Part shown: piece after piece, positions 9,232-17,349 of the stretch
How positions within the stretch are numbered: position 1 is the first letter of the stretch
Layout: every line of letters starts with the position of its first letter
Source: Fimbriimonadaceae bacterium
GTDB taxonomy: Bacteria > Armatimonadota > Fimbriimonadia > Fimbriimonadales > Fimbriimonadaceae
Direction: 5' to 3'
Assembly: GCA_023957775.1 (NCBI GenBank)
Contig: JAMLGR010000001.1
Coordinates: 124,001-188,000 of the forward strand
Length of the DNA: 64,000 nucleotides
Notes under the pieces: model-generated
The model's input: the letters and a program-made list of their open reading frames with translations, nothing else
Databases searched by the model: none
Told to the model about the DNA's origin: nothing
Program-made: the position numbers and the translations under genes

Positions 9232-10359
9232 CTAGCCGCCCCGAAGTTGAAGTCGCTTGTCGCCGAACACGAAGGTGAGGTTCCACTCGCCGTCGGGGAC
9301 GGCGGAGCCAAGCAGCGCGCGCTGTTTCGCATCGAGGTCCGAGAGTCGCAAATAGCCTCGTTGCGCGTGGAGGGCCCGCTGCTGGGGCGTCAGGCTCGCT
9401 TGGAGTTCCTTGAGGGCTCCAATTGAGATCGAAGCCTGGCCGACTTTCATTGGGGCGAGCTTCGACAACTCGTCCAAATGGAGCTTGAGTTGCGGGAGCC
9501 CCTGCATCCCCTCGAGTTCTCGGAGTTTTGACAACTCGCCCAGGTGGAGCTTGAGTTGCGAAAGCTCCTGCAGGTCCTTGCCTTGGAGAACGCCGGCTTC
9601 CGCTAGCGCGCGTTCGATCTGTCCCTTCAGTTCTGCCTGGTTCGGCATGGCTGCGCGCGCTCGATCCATCGCTTTGCGCTCGGCTTCCATGGCCTTGCGA
9701 AGGTCGGCGATCTGCGGGGGGGAGAGCTCGTGGAGGCCCTTGCCTTGGAGCACTCCCGCCTTCTCCATCTCCTTTTGGGCTTCCGCAAGCGCGCGTTCGA
9801 TCTGTTCCTTCAGTTCCGCTTGGTTCGGCATGACCACGCGCGCTCGTTCCATCGCCATGCGCTCGCCTTCCAGGGCCTTGCGAAGGTCGAGGGCCTGCGG
9901 CGTTCCCAGTTCGCGAATCCGCAACGGGGCGATCGCCGCCGGGGTTCCGGCGTGCTCGCGGTTGGACAACACGTGGACTTGGCCAACTTGGACCCACACG
10001 CCGCCGTAAGCCCGCGCGATCGCATCCAACACCTCGGACAGCGCCACATCGTGCACCGAAAGGCTGAGCTGGCGATCCGCAAACTCGGCGTCCGGCGCCG
10101 CCGCGAAGTTGAGGCCTTGGGAAGCAAGCCACTGGAACACCTTGTTCATTGGCGCATTGTCGAAGGTGATCGACACCTTCTTTTGCAGGGCGGGCGATTT
10201 CTCCTGGGCGATGACCCACAGCTGCGTCTCGGCCGGGGGCGCCGGGGCGACGTGTTCGGGCGGCTTGGGAGGTTCCGGCGGGTCCGACTTCTGGGCCAGG
10301 GGTGGTCCGCCGACGCCAAGCGCAAGGCTTGCGAGAAGGGTCTTCAGAAACATGCTCAT
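9232..10359 (-). CDS. Exported protein with STN (secretin/TonB short N-terminal-like) domain and internal repeats
   Basis: 375 residues: signal peptide, a proline-rich stretch, then an STN-like module at about residues 60-130 (VSITFDNAPMNKVFQWLASQ, ending VWVQVGQVHVLSN), the fold found at the start of secretins and TonB-dependent transducers. The rest is a charged helical region with a duplicated unit of about 45 residues (ALEGERMAMERARVVMPNQA / AMEAERKAMDRARAAMPNQA) and shorter QLKLHL-ELSKL repeats. ATG at 10359 is preferred because GAGGAGT stands 9 nt before it. No secretin or barrel domain follows, so it is not a secretin itself. Function unknown. Confidence 0.65.
   Translation of the reverse strand: MSMFLKTLLASLALGVGGPPLAQKSDPPEPPKPPEHVAPAPPAETQLWVIAQEKSPALQKKVSITFDNAPMNKVFQWLASQGLNFAAAPDAEFADRQLSLSVHDVALSEVLDAIARAYGGVWVQVGQVHVLSNREHAGTPAAIAPLRIRELGTPQALDLRKALEGERMAMERARVVMPNQAELKEQIERALAEAQKEMEKAGVLQGKGLHELSPPQIADLRKAMEAERKAMDRARAAMPNQAELKGQIERALAEAGVLQGKDLQELSQLKLHLGELSKLRELEGMQGLPQLKLHLDELSKLAPMKVGQASISIGALKELQASLTPQQRALHAQRGYLRLSDLDAKQRALLGSAVPDGEWNLTFVFGDKRLQLRGG
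9576..9884. repeat. Intragenic imperfect direct repeat
   Basis: Two copies of a roughly 130-bp unit, at about 9576-9702 and 9736-9884, inside the STN-domain gene. Both contain CTTGCCTTGGAG, GCGCGTTCGATCTG, CTTCAGTT and GGTTCGGCATG in the same order. The second copy carries a short extra segment. They encode the duplicated helical unit of the protein, and the close nucleotide match suggests a recent tandem duplication. Confidence 0.75.
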
Positions 10360-10529
10360 CGTTATCAACTCCTCATGCGGTGCTTTCATGGCATCTACGA
10401 GATGGACCGAATTCTGCGTTCCAGGGTCCTAGGACTCGAGTTGCGGCGAAAGACCACCGACTCAATGAGTGTCCTTGGATCGCACACGACCAACGTCCTC
10501 GGCTCGGAGTGGGTAAACAGGGAAAACCA

Positions 10530-12683
10530 ATGGCGAAGCAACAAGTGGGGGCGGACGTCGAACTGCAGAAGAGCCTGGCGGCTGTTCGTGCTCGACTGCC
10601 AATCCTCGTCTTTGCTGGGTGCATGCTCCTCGCCGCGGTCGTCTCGCGCCAGCTCACCATCGCGCGCGAGTCCGCCGAGACCGCTCAGGTGGAATCCGCT
10701 TCGCACGCGATGCTCGAGGAGATGCAGCTCCGACTCAACGCCTACGAAGTCATGCTGCGGAGCACTGCCTCGTTCATCTCGAACCGACCGGAGTTCGATC
10801 GGGACGCCTTCGAGGGCTTCATCACCTCGCAGAGCATTCGCGACTCGTTCCCAGGCGTGCTGGCGATCGGGTATGCGGTGTGGGGTGGTCCGGCCACAAC
10901 ACCCACGGCGAAGATCCGGTACGTCGAACCTGCCCAACCCGAGAATGCGCGGGTCATGGGCTTCGATCTCATGAGCGAGCCAGCGCGGCGCGAAGCGATC
11001 GAAGCGTGCATCCGGACCGGGGATCCCGTCGCGACGTCCCCCGTCACTCTCTCGCAGGACCAAGGCTCTCCGAGAACCGGCCCCGGCGTCGTGTTGTTGG
11101 CCCCTGTTCGTTCCGAGCCCCTCGACCACAACTCTCCGGTCCGCGGGATCGCCTTTCTCTCGTTCCGGACGAGGGACTTCTTTCAGGCCATTCTCGCCAC
11201 CACGCCTCCTATCACCTTTTCGGTCACGGACGGTGCGACCTTGCTCGGGGGCGCGGCACCTCGTTCCGACAAGTCGGAGAACGTTCGGACCACCGAGCGG
11301 CCGGTGCTTTGTGCTGGAAGAACTTGGACCTTTCGCGGTTGGAGCAACGTGGGGTCGTGGCCGGGATTCCCCACGGGGTATGCCATTTATGGGATCGGGT
11401 TGCTCGTGGCCACTTTCCTCTCGGTGACGGTCAGCCGCGAGATTCGAGGCAGAGAGGCAGCCGAGCGGATGGCGGAGCGGGTGAGGGAGTCCGAACGTGC
11501 GGCCGCCGGCGCGGAGGAGCGCTATCGCCTGTTCGTCGCACAAAGCTCCGAGGCCATTTGGCGCTTCGAGTGCTCCAAACCTCTCGACGTCAAGATGCCG
11601 CCGTCCGAACAGGCGGCAGCGCTGCTTTCCGACGCGAAGATCGAGGAGTGCAACTCGGCATTCGCTCTCATGTGCGGGGCCGAGTTGCCGGACGAATTGG
11701 TGGGCCGATCCATCGCCGAGGTGTTCGGAGACGGATCTTGGCTCCCTAAGTTCCTCGCAGGGTTCGTCGAAAGGGGATATCGCGTCGTGGGCTTCGAATC
11801 CGAGGACCACGTGGACGGTGCTCCGCGCTTCCATCTTCACAGCCTGGTGGGAGTCCTCGAGAACGGCTTCCTGAGACGGGGGTGGGGTGTTGTCCGCTCG
11901 GTGACCACCGAACGCCTCGCCCAGCGCGAGATTCTCCAACTCAACCTCGAACTGGAAGATCGTGTGAACGCCCGGACCTCGGAACTTCACGAGGCTAACC
12001 AGGAGATGGAGGCGTTCACCTACACCGTGTCGCACGACCTGCGCTCGCCGCTGCGAACCATGGCCGGATTCGGGAGGATCCTGCGCGAGGATTACGGCGA
12101 TCGCTTGGACGAGGAAGGGCGGACCCTTCTTGGACGCATCGAATCCGCCGCTGTACGCTTGTCCCAATTGATCGATGCGCTGTTGGGTTACTCCCGACTT
12201 TCCCGGGTCGCCATGGAGGTGCGCGAACTTGATTTCTCGGAAACTGCGAGTCGAATCGCAGAAGAGATACGGGAGGCGAAGGCCGAGTCCGTCGACGTCT
12301 GGGTCGAACCGGGTCTATCGATCCGTGCCGACCCCGAGCTCCTCGAGATTCTCCTCGCGAATCTTCTGTCCAACGCGTTCAAATTCACCTCCCGCACGGC
12401 CAACCCAAGGATAGAAGTGGGCAAGGTCGGGGACGAGTTCTTCGTTCGCGACAACGGCGCCGGCTTCGATCCGGCCTTCTCCCAGCGCCTGTTTCGCGCG
12501 TTCGAGCGCCTTCACAATGAACGGGAGTTCCCAGGCACCGGGATCGGGCTGGCGAGCGTCGAGAGGATCGTTGCGAGGCACCGGGGTTCGGTACGCGCCG
12601 AATCGGCGCCCGGCGAGGGAGCGACGTTCTACTTCCGTCTCGAAGGCGGCACGCAGGGAGAGGGCTCGGGCGCCGTGGCATAG
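10530..12683 (+). CDS. CHASE-domain sensor histidine kinase (HisKA type)
   Basis: 717-residue membrane kinase. Order: TM1 at about 18-40 (LPILVFAGCMLLAAVVSRQL); periplasmic CHASE ligand-sensing domain (about 60-250, SFPGVLAIGYAVWG); TM2 (YAIYGIGLLVATFLSVTVSRE); a PAS-like domain; a coiled coil; HisKA with phospho-acceptor His in YTVSHDLRSPLRTMAGFG (near residue 502); HATPase with N box (NLLSNAFKF), G1 (DNGAGFD) and G2 (GTGIGLASV). The H-box resembles phytochrome-like kinases. The ATG at 10530 is chosen because it begins just before TM1. No response regulator is adjacent, so it is an orphan kinase. The lone receiver at 29444 is a possible but unproven partner. Confidence 0.88.
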   Translation: MAKQQVGADVELQKSLAAVRARLPILVFAGCMLLAAVVSRQLTIARESAETAQVESASHAMLEEMQLRLNAYEVMLRSTASFISNRPEFDRDAFEGFITSQSIRDSFPGVLAIGYAVWGGPATTPTAKIRYVEPAQPENARVMGFDLMSEPARREAIEACIRTGDPVATSPVTLSQDQGSPRTGPGVVLLAPVRSEPLDHNSPVRGIAFLSFRTRDFFQAILATTPPITFSVTDGATLLGGAAPRSDKSENVRTTERPVLCAGRTWTFRGWSNVGSWPGFPTGYAIYGIGLLVATFLSVTVSREIRGREAAERMAERVRESERAAAGAEERYRLFVAQSSEAIWRFECSKPLDVKMPPSEQAAALLSDAKIEECNSAFALMCGAELPDELVGRSIAEVFGDGSWLPKFLAGFVERGYRVVGFESEDHVDGAPRFHLHSLVGVLENGFLRRGWGVVRSVTTERLAQREILQLNLELEDRVNARTSELHEANQEMEAFTYTVSHDLRSPLRTMAGFGRILREDYGDRLDEEGRTLLGRIESAAVRLSQLIDALLGYSRLSRVAMEVRELDFSETASRIAEEIREAKAESVDVWVEPGLSIRADPELLEILLANLLSNAFKFTSRTANPRIEVGKVGDEFFVRDNGAGFDPAFSQRLFRAFERLHNEREFPGTGIGLASVERIVARHRGSVRAESAPGEGATFYFRLEGGTQGEGSGAVA

Positions 12684-12737: not shown

Positions 12738-14042
12738 TTAGGGTCGACCCACGTGCCAGGTCGCACGGTCGATCGTGGCGAAGAGCGGCACCGTGGTCTC
12801 TGCGGCAACGGGCCTCCACTCGAACCTCGCGCGCATCCGACGTGTCGACGCGTTCACGAATCGAGCCGGGTTCGAGCCGATGGTCCACGAAAGCGGCACC
12901 AACGTCGTCGGCGCGGCGCGGCGAGCGATCTCCACCCAGTGGTTCGTCGAGTAGTCGAACAGACTCACCTTCAACTCGTTGCCCTGTTGGTTGACGAAGG
13001 CGTCGAGATTGAATTTGAGGCTTGTGATGTTCGCCACCGGCGAGAGCCCTTCGATGATCACCGAAATCGGATAGATCGTCTCGGAGGCGTTGCTTTGGCG
13101 AACCTTGAGAGAACTGCCGTCCACGATCCACAGGTCGATGAAGTCCCCATCCACGTACTGTCCAGCCAAGATCGTGTAGTTGAAGGGGAAGGCCTCGCTG
13201 ATCGTGCCTCCCGTCTCGACCACGAGGAGGAGGTTCGCAAGTCCGGGGGGTCCGCCGAAATTCTCTGCCTCGGTCTCGTCGTAGATGCCATCGGGTTGAG
13301 GATCGTTGTCGTAGTAGAACAGGTCCTCGCTCGAACCAGACGTGACCCCACCGCCGCTGAACATGGTCCAGAACTGGGGCATGAACGCGCCTTCACCAGA
13401 GGCTACTGGCGCGCGAATCTGCGAGGCAAAGTAGAAGCTGCCGTCGGGGACGATCACTCCAGCGATGGAGATGTCGAACGTGATCTTCCAGTCTCCCGTG
13501 CTGGGGAAGGCGTAGAAGCCCCCGAAGTCGGCGAGGACGCCCGAAAACGCGGAAACGCCTGCTCCGCGTCCGGACACGAAACTGTCGTGGACGATCCAGC
13601 GCAAAATGACCTGCTGGGTCGACTCCACGTGGTAGCCCACCGTCATGTTGGTCCAGGGCTGGCCGTTGCTTGAGGAGACCATCACGGCGTCGTCCAAGGC
13701 GCTTGGCATCGGGAACTCGGGTCCGGTGTAGAAGTAGGTCCCGTCGATGTCGTTCTTGTAGCCGATCGCCGAAGCATAGGGGCCACCATGGGGGTTGACT
13801 TGGCCCGGCTTGGTGGAAGCCTTGACCCGCACCGCATGGAAGGGCACCTTCATGCCCTGCGCCGACTGGTACGTGCCATCGGCCCGGCGCACCATGCCGA
13901 AGGTCAGCTCCATGACGCCCGAAAACGACTGGATCTCTCCTTTGGTGCCGGATCTCGATCCCAGTCCGACGCTCTGTGCAGATGCCGTGCCGACCAAAGT
14001 GGCCGCCACCAGGCCCGCAACGAACAAATTGCCAAGTTTCAC
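12738..14042 (-). CDS. Exported protein of unknown function, sharing its C-terminal domain with the divergent neighbour
   Basis: 434 residues with a signal peptide (VAGLVAATLVGTASAQ). The body is beta-rich and describes no known enzyme. The last 120 or so residues (LKVSLFDYSTNHWVEI ... RFVNASTRRMRARFEWRP ... DRATWHVGRP) match the end of the product encoded divergently from 14185 (RTVDLFDFVANRWEAV ... FVRAGTGEMRAKVGY ... DLAMFRVGHP), so the two are paralogues in that module. The GTG start at 14042 follows GAGGAGGATC. A consensus-like promoter lies upstream. Probably a surface or periplasmic protein; role unknown. Confidence 0.7.
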   Translation of the reverse strand: MKLGNLFVAGLVAATLVGTASAQSVGLGSRSGTKGEIQSFSGVMELTFGMVRRADGTYQSAQGMKVPFHAVRVKASTKPGQVNPHGGPYASAIGYKNDIDGTYFYTGPEFPMPSALDDAVMVSSSNGQPWTNMTVGYHVESTQQVILRWIVHDSFVSGRGAGVSAFSGVLADFGGFYAFPSTGDWKITFDISIAGVIVPDGSFYFASQIRAPVASGEGAFMPQFWTMFSGGGVTSGSSEDLFYYDNDPQPDGIYDETEAENFGGPPGLANLLLVVETGGTISEAFPFNYTILAGQYVDGDFIDLWIVDGSSLKVRQSNASETIYPISVIIEGLSPVANITSLKFNLDAFVNQQGNELKVSLFDYSTNHWVEIARRAAPTTLVPLSWTIGSNPARFVNASTRRMRARFEWRPVAAETTVPLFATIDRATWHVGRP

Positions 14043-14067
14043 TCGATCCTCCTCGGATTCAACGATT

Positions 14068-14096
14068 ATTATAAGAGAGGAGTTGCCGACCACCAA
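14068..14096 (-). promoter_or_regulatory. Sigma-70-like promoter for the exported-protein gene
   Basis: On the minus strand TTGGTG (14096-14091) and TATAAT (14073-14068) are separated by 17 nt, 25 nt before the start codon at 14042. This places the RNA start near 14061 with a short leader carrying the GAGGAGG ribosome site. Confidence 0.65.
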
Positions 14097-14136
14097 ATGG
14101 GGCGGGCGAGACTCAACCGTCTCTTGGATGGAGGTT

Positions 14137-14157
14137 GCCCCGGAATTGTTCCGGGGC
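14137..14157 (+). promoter_or_regulatory. Perfect 9-bp inverted repeat in the leader of the plus-strand exported protein
   Basis: GCCCCGGAA-TTG-TTCCGGGGC, 27 nt before the GTG start at 14185. It could be a leader hairpin (attenuator or mRNA stabiliser) or, as DNA, an operator dyad. No U-run follows. Nothing in the sequence decides between these. Confidence 0.45.
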
Positions 14158-14184
14158 GACGGCGCGACTCCAGGGAGTTTGCGA

Positions 14185-15579
14185 GTGAACACGGTGATTC
14201 GTCTGTTCTTGGGGGCTTTGGCCGTGGCCGCCCTGACCTCGATGCCACAGGCCCAACAATTCCGGTCGGGGCCGCCGCTTTTCAGTCCCGAAAAGCGATC
14301 GCGACCGTACCCTGGGTCTCTGCGCAGCGTCCAGCCACTTCGCGTCGCGCGGGTGGATCGCCTGGGACGGATCGTTGGAAGGTGGAAACCGGTTGTCTCG
14401 GTGGACTGGCCGGAAGATCCCTGGTTCGTCGCGTTTGACTGCTTCGAGGCGGATCCGGACAGCGCCGACGGCACGCCGTACGACGGCGGCTACGGAGTCA
14501 ACTACAACTCCCCCGGGAATGGATCCGACCGCTGGTTCTTCGGTCCGACGTACGCGAACATGTTCGCCGTGAACGACATGGTGGTCGCTCCGGCATTCGC
14601 CTTGGGAAGCGCCTCGCGCACGTCGTTCTCCTGGTATTGGGGAGGCGCCGCCAACGAGCGATGCATCATCGTCATCGCCACTTGGGAGCGTTTTGGCGAC
14701 ACGGAGGCCGGGGTCGCCCCGAACGAGGCGGCCGAGACCCTACTAGACGCGTGGGCCTTCGACTTCGGCACCACGCTCACCGAAGGGGGCTACTTCGCGG
14801 GGATCAACCTTGCGAGCCCGGATGTGTTCCGACTTCCGGCAGACGGCAGGGGCGCGTACTCGATGACGATTGCACGCGACGTGGGCGCCGGCGGGATCAC
14901 GCTGGCATCGCTGGCGCAGCCCTTTCTCTGGTTCACCAAGCCGGAGAACCCGAGCTTCCAGGGTCCGCTGCAGTGGGACGACGACAATCCCGCAGATGGT
15001 GTTCACCGAACGAATCCGCCGGGCCCCGCCGAGGATGTAGAGTTGTACGACTACACCGGCGCGGTCAGCGCCCCCGTGCCCGCCGGGGTGATGACGGCCT
15101 TCTACTCGAAGGCGCAGGCGGTGCCTCCAACATCCCTCTTGGTCGTCAACGGGGTGAACTTGGGCGGCGGCATTCCCGCGATCGTCAAGAGCGACGACGT
15201 GAGGCAGGGGGTTCGCCTCAATCCTGCAGCGGAGCAAGTGGGCCATCAACTGCAGCTCGTGCTGACCGCGACGAGCCCTCTCGCGTCCCCGACGAGTTTG
15301 GAGCTCGTGATCGAGGACAACTCGAGCGTCACCGGGGTGAGGCGCACGGTCGATCTCTTCGATTTCGTTGCCAACCGCTGGGAGGCCGTGGACGCCCGCT
15401 TTGAAAGCCTCGCCGACCGGACGAGCGTCGCAGTGGCATCGGGCGACCTCTCGAGGTTCGTCAGAGCCGGAACGGGAGAGATGCGGGCGAAGGTGGGTTA
15501 CGATCTCGTGGCCGCCGATCTCTTCTTCGTCTGGCAGGCCCAGATCGATCTGGCCATGTTTCGCGTCGGCCACCCGTAG
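14185..15579 (+). CDS. Exported protein of unknown function, paralogous module with the divergent gene
   Basis: 464 residues with a signal peptide (LFLGALAVAALTSMPQAQQ). The mid-region is rich in Gly, Trp and Asp (FSWYWGGAANERCIIVI, FFGPTYANMFAVNDMVV) and resembles secreted carbohydrate- or surface-associated proteins, but matches no family I recognise. The C-terminal 120 residues repeat the module of the 12738-14042 product. GTG at 14185 with CAGGGAG 7 nt upstream is preferred; the open frame before it lacks a signal. Head-to-head placement with its relative suggests duplication followed by inversion (inference). Confidence 0.7.
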   Translation: MNTVIRLFLGALAVAALTSMPQAQQFRSGPPLFSPEKRSRPYPGSLRSVQPLRVARVDRLGRIVGRWKPVVSVDWPEDPWFVAFDCFEADPDSADGTPYDGGYGVNYNSPGNGSDRWFFGPTYANMFAVNDMVVAPAFALGSASRTSFSWYWGGAANERCIIVIATWERFGDTEAGVAPNEAAETLLDAWAFDFGTTLTEGGYFAGINLASPDVFRLPADGRGAYSMTIARDVGAGGITLASLAQPFLWFTKPENPSFQGPLQWDDDNPADGVHRTNPPGPAEDVELYDYTGAVSAPVPAGVMTAFYSKAQAVPPTSLLVVNGVNLGGGIPAIVKSDDVRQGVRLNPAAEQVGHQLQLVLTATSPLASPTSLELVIEDNSSVTGVRRTVDLFDFVANRWEAVDARFESLADRTSVAVASGDLSRFVRAGTGEMRAKVGYDLVAADLFFVWQAQIDLAMFRVGHP

Positions 15580-15636: not shown

Positions 15637-17349
15637 ATGCAGTTCGACACCGCTCTGTCAAGAAAGGAGTTCCTGCGCGGGCTCATGGCTGCGACCGCGG
15701 CCGGCGCGATGGCCCCGCGGGGAGCTGCGCAGGGTCAAAGTCCGCCCTCCGACCCCGCCGCGGTGACTGCAGACGACCTCAAGGTCCTGGAAAAGGTCTT
15801 CGCCATCGAGTTCACGGACGAGGAGCGGGCGGCTTTGGTCAACTCGGTGCGTGGCGCGCGTAGGGGCTTTGAGAACATCCGAACGCTTCCCATCGACTAC
15901 ACGGTCGAACCCCCGACGCCCTTTTCTCCCCTTCCAGGGCGCAGCCGGGTCGCCAGTGCGCCGCGAGGGGTCAGTGTGCGCCCATCGCCCCCGACGGTGA
16001 AGGAGGTCCCGAAAGGCGAGGAGCTCGCCTTCCAGTCGGTCCGCAACCTGGGCGAGCTCCTTCGCACGCGGAAGGTCACGTCGGTTCAACTCACCCAGCT
16101 CTATCTGGAGCGGCTGCGGCGATACGGCGACGCGTTGCTGTGCGTCGTCACCCTCACCCCGGATCTTGCGCTGAAGCAGGCCGAGCAAGCCGACGCGGAG
16201 ATTCGAGCGGGGAAGTCCCGGGGGCCTCTGCACGGGATTCCCTGCGGCGTCAAAGACCTGCTCGCAACCAAGGGCATTCCAACCACCTGGGGCGCGGACC
16301 CCTACAAGGATCAGGTTTTCGACTACGATGCCGCAGTCGTCGAGCGCCTGCGCGATGCCGGAGCGGTCTTGGTCGCGAAGCTCAGCATGGGAGCCCTGGC
16401 GCAGGGCGACGTCTGGTTCAAGGGCAGGACCCGAAACCCGTGGAATCCCGCTACGGGGTCCTCCGGCTCGAGCGCGGGCTCGGCCGCCGCGACCGCGGCG
16501 GGACTCGTGGGCTTTGCGATTGGGACCGAGACGCTGGGTTCCATCGTTTCCCCGAGCCACGTGTGCCGGGTCACCGGCCTCCGTCCCACCTACGGCCGGG
16601 TCAGCCGCCGCGGTGCGATGGCCGTGAGTTGGACGATGGACAAGATTGGAATCCTTTGCCGCGAGGTGGAGGACTGCGCTCTGGTCTTCGCCGCGATTTG
16701 CGGCGCGGACCCCGGCGACCCGAGCAGCGTGGAGCGGCCGTTTCACTACGATCCGCGCGTGGACCTTTCGCGTCTGCGCATCGGGTATCTCTCCAGCGCG
16801 GGAACCGAAGGGGAGGCGGCGGCTCCCCAATCCGTGGGCTATCTCAAGCGGCTGCTCGATCTCGGGGCCAAGCTTGAGCCCGTGGTGGTCGATCCGATTC
16901 CAAGCGGGGCGAACCTGGTGCTCGGCGTCGAGGCGTCGGCGGCCTTCGACGCGTTCACGCGGGGAGACGCGATCGACGAGCTGAAGAACAGCGCGTGGCC
17001 GAGCACCTATCGTTCCAACCGCTACGTGCCCGCGGTCGAGTATCTGCAGGCCCAGCGTGCGCGGACCTTGCTCCAGAAACGTTTCGAAGAGCAGCTCGGC
17101 GACGTGGACGTGCTTGTGGCCGACGAGCGCGGCGGGCATACTTTGTTTGTCACGAACCTGACCGGCCACCCCCAGGTGCTGGTGCCGAACGGGACCGACG
17201 ACCGGGGTGCGGCGAGGAGCGTGTCGTTCATCGGCCGGCTGTACGAGGACGATCTCCTCCTGGCGGTGGCCAGGCGGTTTCAGGAGACGGGCGATGCCCA
17301 CCACCTGAGACCGGATTTGTCCAAGATCGGCACAGACCTGAACCGATAG
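15637..17349 (+). CDS. Tat-exported amidase (amidase signature family) with fused N-terminal domain
   Basis: 570 residues. N-terminal Tat-like signal (SRKEFLRGLMAATAAGAMA), then a domain of about 95 residues (LEKVFAIEFTDEERAALV...), then the catalytic amidase from about residue 130. The Ser-cisSer-Lys triad is visible: Lys in GVKDLLATKGIPTTWG and the Ser-rich loop GSSGSSAGSAAATAAGL. The family hydrolyses amide bonds (GatA, fatty amides, peptide amides and others); substrate unknown. The N-terminal domain matches the separate small gene at 60805-61074, which precedes another amidase. Ribosome site GAAGGAA 6 nt upstream. Followed 11 bp later by a glycosyltransferase-like gene. Confidence 0.88.
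   Translation: MQFDTALSRKEFLRGLMAATAAGAMAPRGAAQGQSPPSDPAAVTADDLKVLEKVFAIEFTDEERAALVNSVRGARRGFENIRTLPIDYTVEPPTPFSPLPGRSRVASAPRGVSVRPSPPTVKEVPKGEELAFQSVRNLGELLRTRKVTSVQLTQLYLERLRRYGDALLCVVTLTPDLALKQAEQADAEIRAGKSRGPLHGIPCGVKDLLATKGIPTTWGADPYKDQVFDYDAAVVERLRDAGAVLVAKLSMGALAQGDVWFKGRTRNPWNPATGSSGSSAGSAAATAAGLVGFAIGTETLGSIVSPSHVCRVTGLRPTYGRVSRRGAMAVSWTMDKIGILCREVEDCALVFAAICGADPGDPSSVERPFHYDPRVDLSRLRIGYLSSAGTEGEAAAPQSVGYLKRLLDLGAKLEPVVVDPIPSGANLVLGVEASAAFDAFTRGDAIDELKNSAWPSTYRSNRYVPAVEYLQAQRARTLLQKRFEEQLGDVDVLVADERGGHTLFVTNLTGHPQVLVPNGTDDRGAARSVSFIGRLYEDDLLLAVARRFQETGDAHHLRPDLSKIGTDLNR

Follow-up and report, generated by a model that had tools for sequence, protein, structure and literature searches.

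Several known systems place a common domain or motif at the C-terminus of exported proteins. In type IX secretion, a C-terminal beta domain with an Ig-like fold is carried by many unrelated exported proteins. Dockerin type I tails consist of short calcium-binding repeats, CBMs (carbohydrate-binding modules) frequently sit as terminal domains, and the choice-of-anchor B family of NCBI was named for varying anchors. PEP-CTERM tails of the exosortase system are also C-terminal and are found many times in a genome, on exported proteins of diverse kinds; passages of PMC1569441 describe such a tail as a PEP motif, a helix, and a basic end.

The module described here likewise sits at the C-terminus of many exported proteins. 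It is a folded domain of about 150 residues, in contrast to the motif, helix, and basic end of PEP-CTERM, and a predicted jelly roll, in contrast to the repeats of dockerin type I. Judging from family searches and a structure model, we consider the family new, whereas its fold and its kind of location, a tail at the C-terminus, are known ones. C-terminal tags reveal how a bacterial group builds its surface, and in this case one tag from outside the searched family libraries links exported proteins, up to dozens of them in each genome, in an order with few cultured members, the Fimbriimonadales.

Genes A and B and their shared C-terminal part

The window (the whole stretch analyzed, 64,000 nucleotides from a Fimbriimonadaceae genome) carries two divergent genes, here called A and B. 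According to their open frames and translations, gene A (12738..14042, minus strand) codes for a protein of 434 aa and gene B (14194..15579, plus strand) for one of 461 aa, the likeliest starts being GTG codons at 14042 (-) and 14194 (+). The two starts are separated by 151 bp (14043..14193), and a scan of positions 13900-14350, which include this intergenic region, returned no sigma-70-like site. Given these likeliest starts, both N-termini are signal-peptide-like over about 22 residues (13977..14042, minus strand, in A; 14194..14259, plus strand, in B), as read from the sequence without a predictor, and both proteins are probably exported. A head-to-head pair of exported-type proteins is what the sequence-only reading had described at this place, and we agree with it. 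The neighboring genes code for a CHASE-domain histidine kinase (10302-12683, plus strand) and an amidase (15637-17349, plus strand).

The last 120 residues of A and B reach a local alignment score of 118, whereas 1000 shuffles averaged 26.7 (sd 4.9) and never exceeded 60, and BLASTP aligns the two proteins with E = 5e-11 at 25% identity over 251 columns. The shared tail proposed from sequence alone is thus real, but with about 150 residues at about 25% identity it is longer than the 120 or so residues first given. Its motifs were also found, in slightly different form from that quoted: LFDYSTNHWVE in A and LFDFVANRWEA in B, with ATWHVGRP and AMFRVGHP as the respective C-terminal ends. The outcomes that would have spoken against a shared module were zero further copies and a weak alignment; further copies were found (see below), and the alignment score lies above those of all shuffles. 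In A, the module occupies 12738..13190 on the minus strand (profile match 12747-13181, 141.9 bits; also recovered in the own-genome search) and in B 15121..15579 on the plus strand (profile match 15133-15570, 144.7 bits), where its jelly roll is predicted by AlphaFold2.

The N-terminal domain of A (13191..13976, minus strand; BLASTP and family alignment) has five homologues among 72 sampled host proteins (BLASTP E 2.8e-27 to 3.4e-78; the sample is defined below). That of B (14260..15111, plus strand; genome search and family alignment) belongs to a family present in 16 of 61 genomes (24 matches) which has no NCBIfam match. The two N-terminal parts had been reported to differ, and in pairwise comparison they do, with at least the same score in 28 of 300 shuffles. 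A comparison of the A-family and B-family profiles, however, gave a weak match (hhalign probability 77.5%, E 1.9e-5, 98 columns), and the two parts are possibly distantly homologous; the A profile against B alone gave nothing. Each of these domains defines a family of its own, made up of exported proteins with no assigned function.

Family identity and predicted fold

At a limit as loose as E 10, Pfam and NCBIfam gave no match to A or B, which includes the absence of a Pfam dockerin match. Searches of the sequences of solved structures (PDB) with the module also gave zero credible matches, in line with the earlier view that the module is undefined. The weak match to GH114_assoc (PF14741) in 2 of 10 modules is below significance (best E 0.03), and this domain is N-terminal by its Pfam name whereas the module is C-terminal. 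For the members of our alignment A1, Pfam returned weak matches only, none of them to a CBM family. A description of the module was not found in the open-access journal literature searched.

The AlphaFold2 model of the B module (window positions 15115-15576, computed from ten sequences) has a pLDDT of 92 and a pTM of 0.87 and consists largely of beta strands. A full-length model of B from a single sequence (pLDDT 30) was discarded. In VIA-align, CBM4-2 matched the module model at Z 11.4 and CBM32, CBM22, CBM16, CBM6, and CBM29 at about 10-11, a range shared with PAPP-A, the cellulose-synthase subunit BcsB, an intraflagellar-transport protein, and Cry toxins. The listed matches from Foldseek were CBM-like jelly rolls. 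The module is thus predicted to be a CBM-like jelly-roll beta-sandwich. The top match in VIA-align was the baseplate protein of Staphylococcus phage phi812 (Z 14.2, rmsd 2.5, 139 residues), clearly above the CBMs. Many of the matched structures bind sugars, yet likeness to a modeled fold does not prove a function.

Across 73 aligned modules, conservation is highest at G320, G325, D334, D452, and W/F456. Further conserved residues lie on the less hydrophobic faces of the strands (aromatics at 389 and 396, D400, R402, R/K431, R/K433, and K/R437), and these aromatic and charged residues may be exposed.

A C-terminal tail on unrelated exported proteins

The distribution of the module was assessed with a profile built from 73 modules at E 1e-8 in 61 genomes, which are the genome of the window and those of 60 relatives. 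The own genome (Armatimonadota, Fimbriimonadales) has 11 copies. At least one copy is present in 36 of the 61 genomes, the numbers ranging from 0 to at least 58 per genome; counts for the richest genomes are lower bounds, with 64 candidates scored per genome. All eight genomes of family f5 have at least 14 copies. Family f1 has the module in 26 of 37 genomes and family f2 in 2 of 14, while the single genomes of f3 and f4 have none. In a phylum-wide search at E 1e-6, the module was recognized in 84 of 291 genomes (63 of f1, 8 of f5, 3 of f2, 1 of f3, and 9 of the three distant families f22, f32, and f35), with at most 13 candidates scored per genome, so that counts for the richest genomes are again lower bounds. 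Matching genomes from the three distant families have one or two copies each. According to these profile searches, the module is expanded in the Fimbriimonadales, and the earlier suggestion of a module repeated in this lineage proved right, with up to 58 copies counted in one relative. A search for plasmid relatives with one module as query found none.

The proteins carrying the module were studied in a sample of 72 hosts (ORFs of at least 300 aa, at most six per genome, taken from the best 141 matches outside the own genome), which by its construction excludes weak module copies; five of these ORFs are still open where the fetched sequence ends upstream. In 71 of the 72 hosts, the protein stops 0-4 residues past the module. 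In the one exception, a protein from family f2, the module is followed by a dockerin; another f2 locus (L063) was judged by eye to have the same order of module and dockerin. No second module was found in any of 80 proteins. A signal-peptide-like stretch is present in 60 of the 72 hosts by a crude rule, under which at least three hosts (L115, L121, and L138) pass only with a stretch located beyond the first 200 residues of the ORF. Conversely, some of the 12 failing hosts look like they have signal peptides. The module is therefore a strictly C-terminal tail on unrelated exported proteins. Among the matches listed, propellers and proteases prevail as hosts. The families matched include BNR and sortilin propellers, glucose/sorbosone dehydrogenases, SBBP, FG-GAP, HAF, delta-60, and RCC1 repeats, and in addition subtilases, M6 metalloproteases, trypsin-like proteins, and TolB-like proteins (the two tallies cover the top 25 families each, out of 33 and 46). 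One of the hosts is similar to a T9SS-dependent M6-like protein (NF052323).

These hosts bear on the reading of the module as an ordinary CBM, which would stick proteins to environmental polysaccharides from algae, plants, or biofilms. Such a role agrees with the predicted fold, which jelly-roll CBMs (CBM4, 22, 32, 6, 16, and 29) share over 120-139 residues, and with the frequent terminal location of CBMs. In contrast to these CBMs, the module has no Pfam CBM match, shows only 5-12% identity to them in the structural alignments, and is fixed at the C-terminus of hosts which are largely non-CAZyme. No classical polysaccharide hydrolase stands out in the 72 hosts, among the matches listed, and there are zero tandem copies and hardly any non-terminal one. 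Because of the hosts and the position, we regard an environmental CBM as quite unlikely.

Copying, exchange with dockerin-like tails, and proposed attachment to the surface

Among the 72 hosts there are 133 same-genome pairs, of which 16 have modules that are at least 60% identical across 100 or more residues. Five of these pairs have homologous N-terminal parts; in the other 11, the N-terminal parts match no better than E 0.004. In eight pairs with unrelated N-terminal parts, the DNA match starts at most 21 bases from the first codon of the module and ends at most 23 bases from the stop codon, with an identity of 85-96% in six pairs; the two remaining pairs have 78% and 68%. The clearest case is that of loci L089 and L091 in genome G050 (438 bp at 96.3%). 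As near-identical copies sit on unrelated proteins within one genome, the module has been copied from gene to gene as a unit. Such recent copying with fairly sharp edges amounts to a domain exchange observed nearly in the act.

A tree of 94 modules, with 44 of its 91 inner branches weakly supported, requires 45 changes of the genome label, compared with 76.1 for shuffled labels (0 of 200 shuffles as low); near-copies add to this clustering by genome. Five of the 15 genomes listed on the tree (G007, G010, G015, G017, and G024) show no clustering. Seven modules of choice-of-anchor B proteins from four f1 genomes form one group, so that in these the module stayed with its host. Over the whole tree, the choice-of-anchor B label (17 rows) changes 11 times. 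The module is thus in part inherited together with its host and in part copied.

The module hosts of the own genome include one from the choice-of-anchor B family (361.6 bits against a cut-off of 100). In total, 28 such proteins were found in 21 of the 61 genomes, and 24 of them match the module, 17 above 60 bits and 7 at 10-55 bits; one of the 24 reaches the end of the fetched stretch (L184). Two of the remaining proteins (L170 and L179) end in dockerin-like repeats, one (L188) has no match, and one locus counted among the 28 (L174) was not readable. A similar alternation is seen for the N-terminal domain of B. Of its 24 matches, 12 loci were fetched, including that of the window, and the 11 others were read: six have dockerin-like ends (L203, L204, L209, L210, L211, and L213; four of f2, two of f1), four match the module (at 68, 30, 13, and 12 bits, the 13-bit one being cut by the contig end), and one (L212) is cut off. 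The dockerin-like tails were assigned largely by eye: the Pfam dockerin model matches four of nine such tails, only L150 above the cut-off, and of the six on homologues of B it matches only L203, below the cut-off. In two host families, the module thus sits at the C-terminal position where homologues from relatives have a dockerin-like tail. Cohesins were considered as partners of these tails, and none was recognized in the 21 genomes searched.

This alternation also bears on the idea that the module is a cap for folding or stability with no binding partner. In favor of a cap, a structural role is conceivable for the positions with the highest conservation (G320, G325, D452, W456), and many hosts are beta-propellers; but hosts of other folds, among them subtilases and the domains of A and B, carry the module as well, and relatives of the same hosts lack it and carry a dockerin-like tail. 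A cap thus seems very improbable.

We favor, at nearly even chances, the reading of the module as a lectin-like attachment tail which binds a glycan of the cell's own surface. Attachment is inferred because of the strict C-terminal place, the CBM-like fold, the choice-of-anchor hosts, the exchange with dockerin-like tails, and the copying. The N-terminal signal peptide would first export the host protein; the folded jelly roll would then bind an envelope glycan of the cell itself (capsule, exopolysaccharide, or lipopolysaccharide), and the bound module would hold the host, be it a beta-propeller, a protease, or the domain of A or B, at the surface. A visible capsule and lipopolysaccharide genes, reported for Fimbriimonas ginsengisoli in passages of PMC4072686, count in favor of an attachment tail, as do the position of the conserved aromatic and charged residues on the less hydrophobic strand faces and the lack of a second module in all 80 proteins. 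Several points count against it. Jelly rolls serve many roles, and the best structural match of the model is to a phage baseplate protein, not a CBM. The dockerin reading is largely by eye, with cohesins not found in 21 genomes. Moreover, 25 of the 61 genomes have no module copy at E 1e-8 and would therefore display proteins without it, and PEP-CTERM tails are abundant in the same genomes. Of the earlier proposal of a surface or anchoring module, the repeated family stands, while anchoring is our interpretation.

A serious rival, which the present data do not separate from an attachment tail and which we consider rather unlikely, is a folded signal for secretion or sorting, comparable to the C-terminal domain of type IX cargo and read by an outer-membrane machine or by type II secretion. 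The strict C-terminal place on many unrelated hosts and the copying onto new hosts would fit a sorting tag, and passages of PMC4072686 report type II secretion genes in Fimbriimonas ginsengisoli. As to type IX secretion, no SprA match reaches the family cut-off in any of the 61 genomes, and this candidate was rejected. The sub-threshold matches, found in 57 of the 61 genomes, all lie at about positions 567-692 of 2319, presumably a secretin-type domain. The module is CBM-like among the matches listed, with no known sorting fold among them, although a gap in that list says nothing against an Ig-like fold, and a candidate machine was not found in searches short of genome-wide profiling.

PEP-CTERM was found in 60 of the 61 genomes, with 57 matches in the own genome, so that these tails and the module coexist. 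The C-termini of A and B have no PEP motif, transmembrane helix, or basic cluster. A trade-off between PEP-CTERM and the module was considered and rejected, as there is no anticorrelation (Spearman +0.27, p 0.058, 50 genomes at least 90% complete). A PEP-CTERM regular expression gave six tails in the window, which look like noise.

Taken further, the attachment tail may belong to an undescribed display system of the Armatimonadota, in which an entire lectin-like jelly roll, in place of a short motif, serves as an interchangeable C-terminal label, spreads by copying among unrelated genes, and is bound by one surface glycan or receptor; this is a tentative idea, to which we give clearly less than an even chance. 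If the module is an attachment tail, it offers a direct handle on protein display in the Fimbriimonadales, and which glycan or machine reads it becomes testable.

More divergent relatives of the module form the protein ends at two further loci of the own genome, L037 and L038 on contig C2 (profile A2, E 2e-8 and 2e-5); one of these two proteins is a subtilase.
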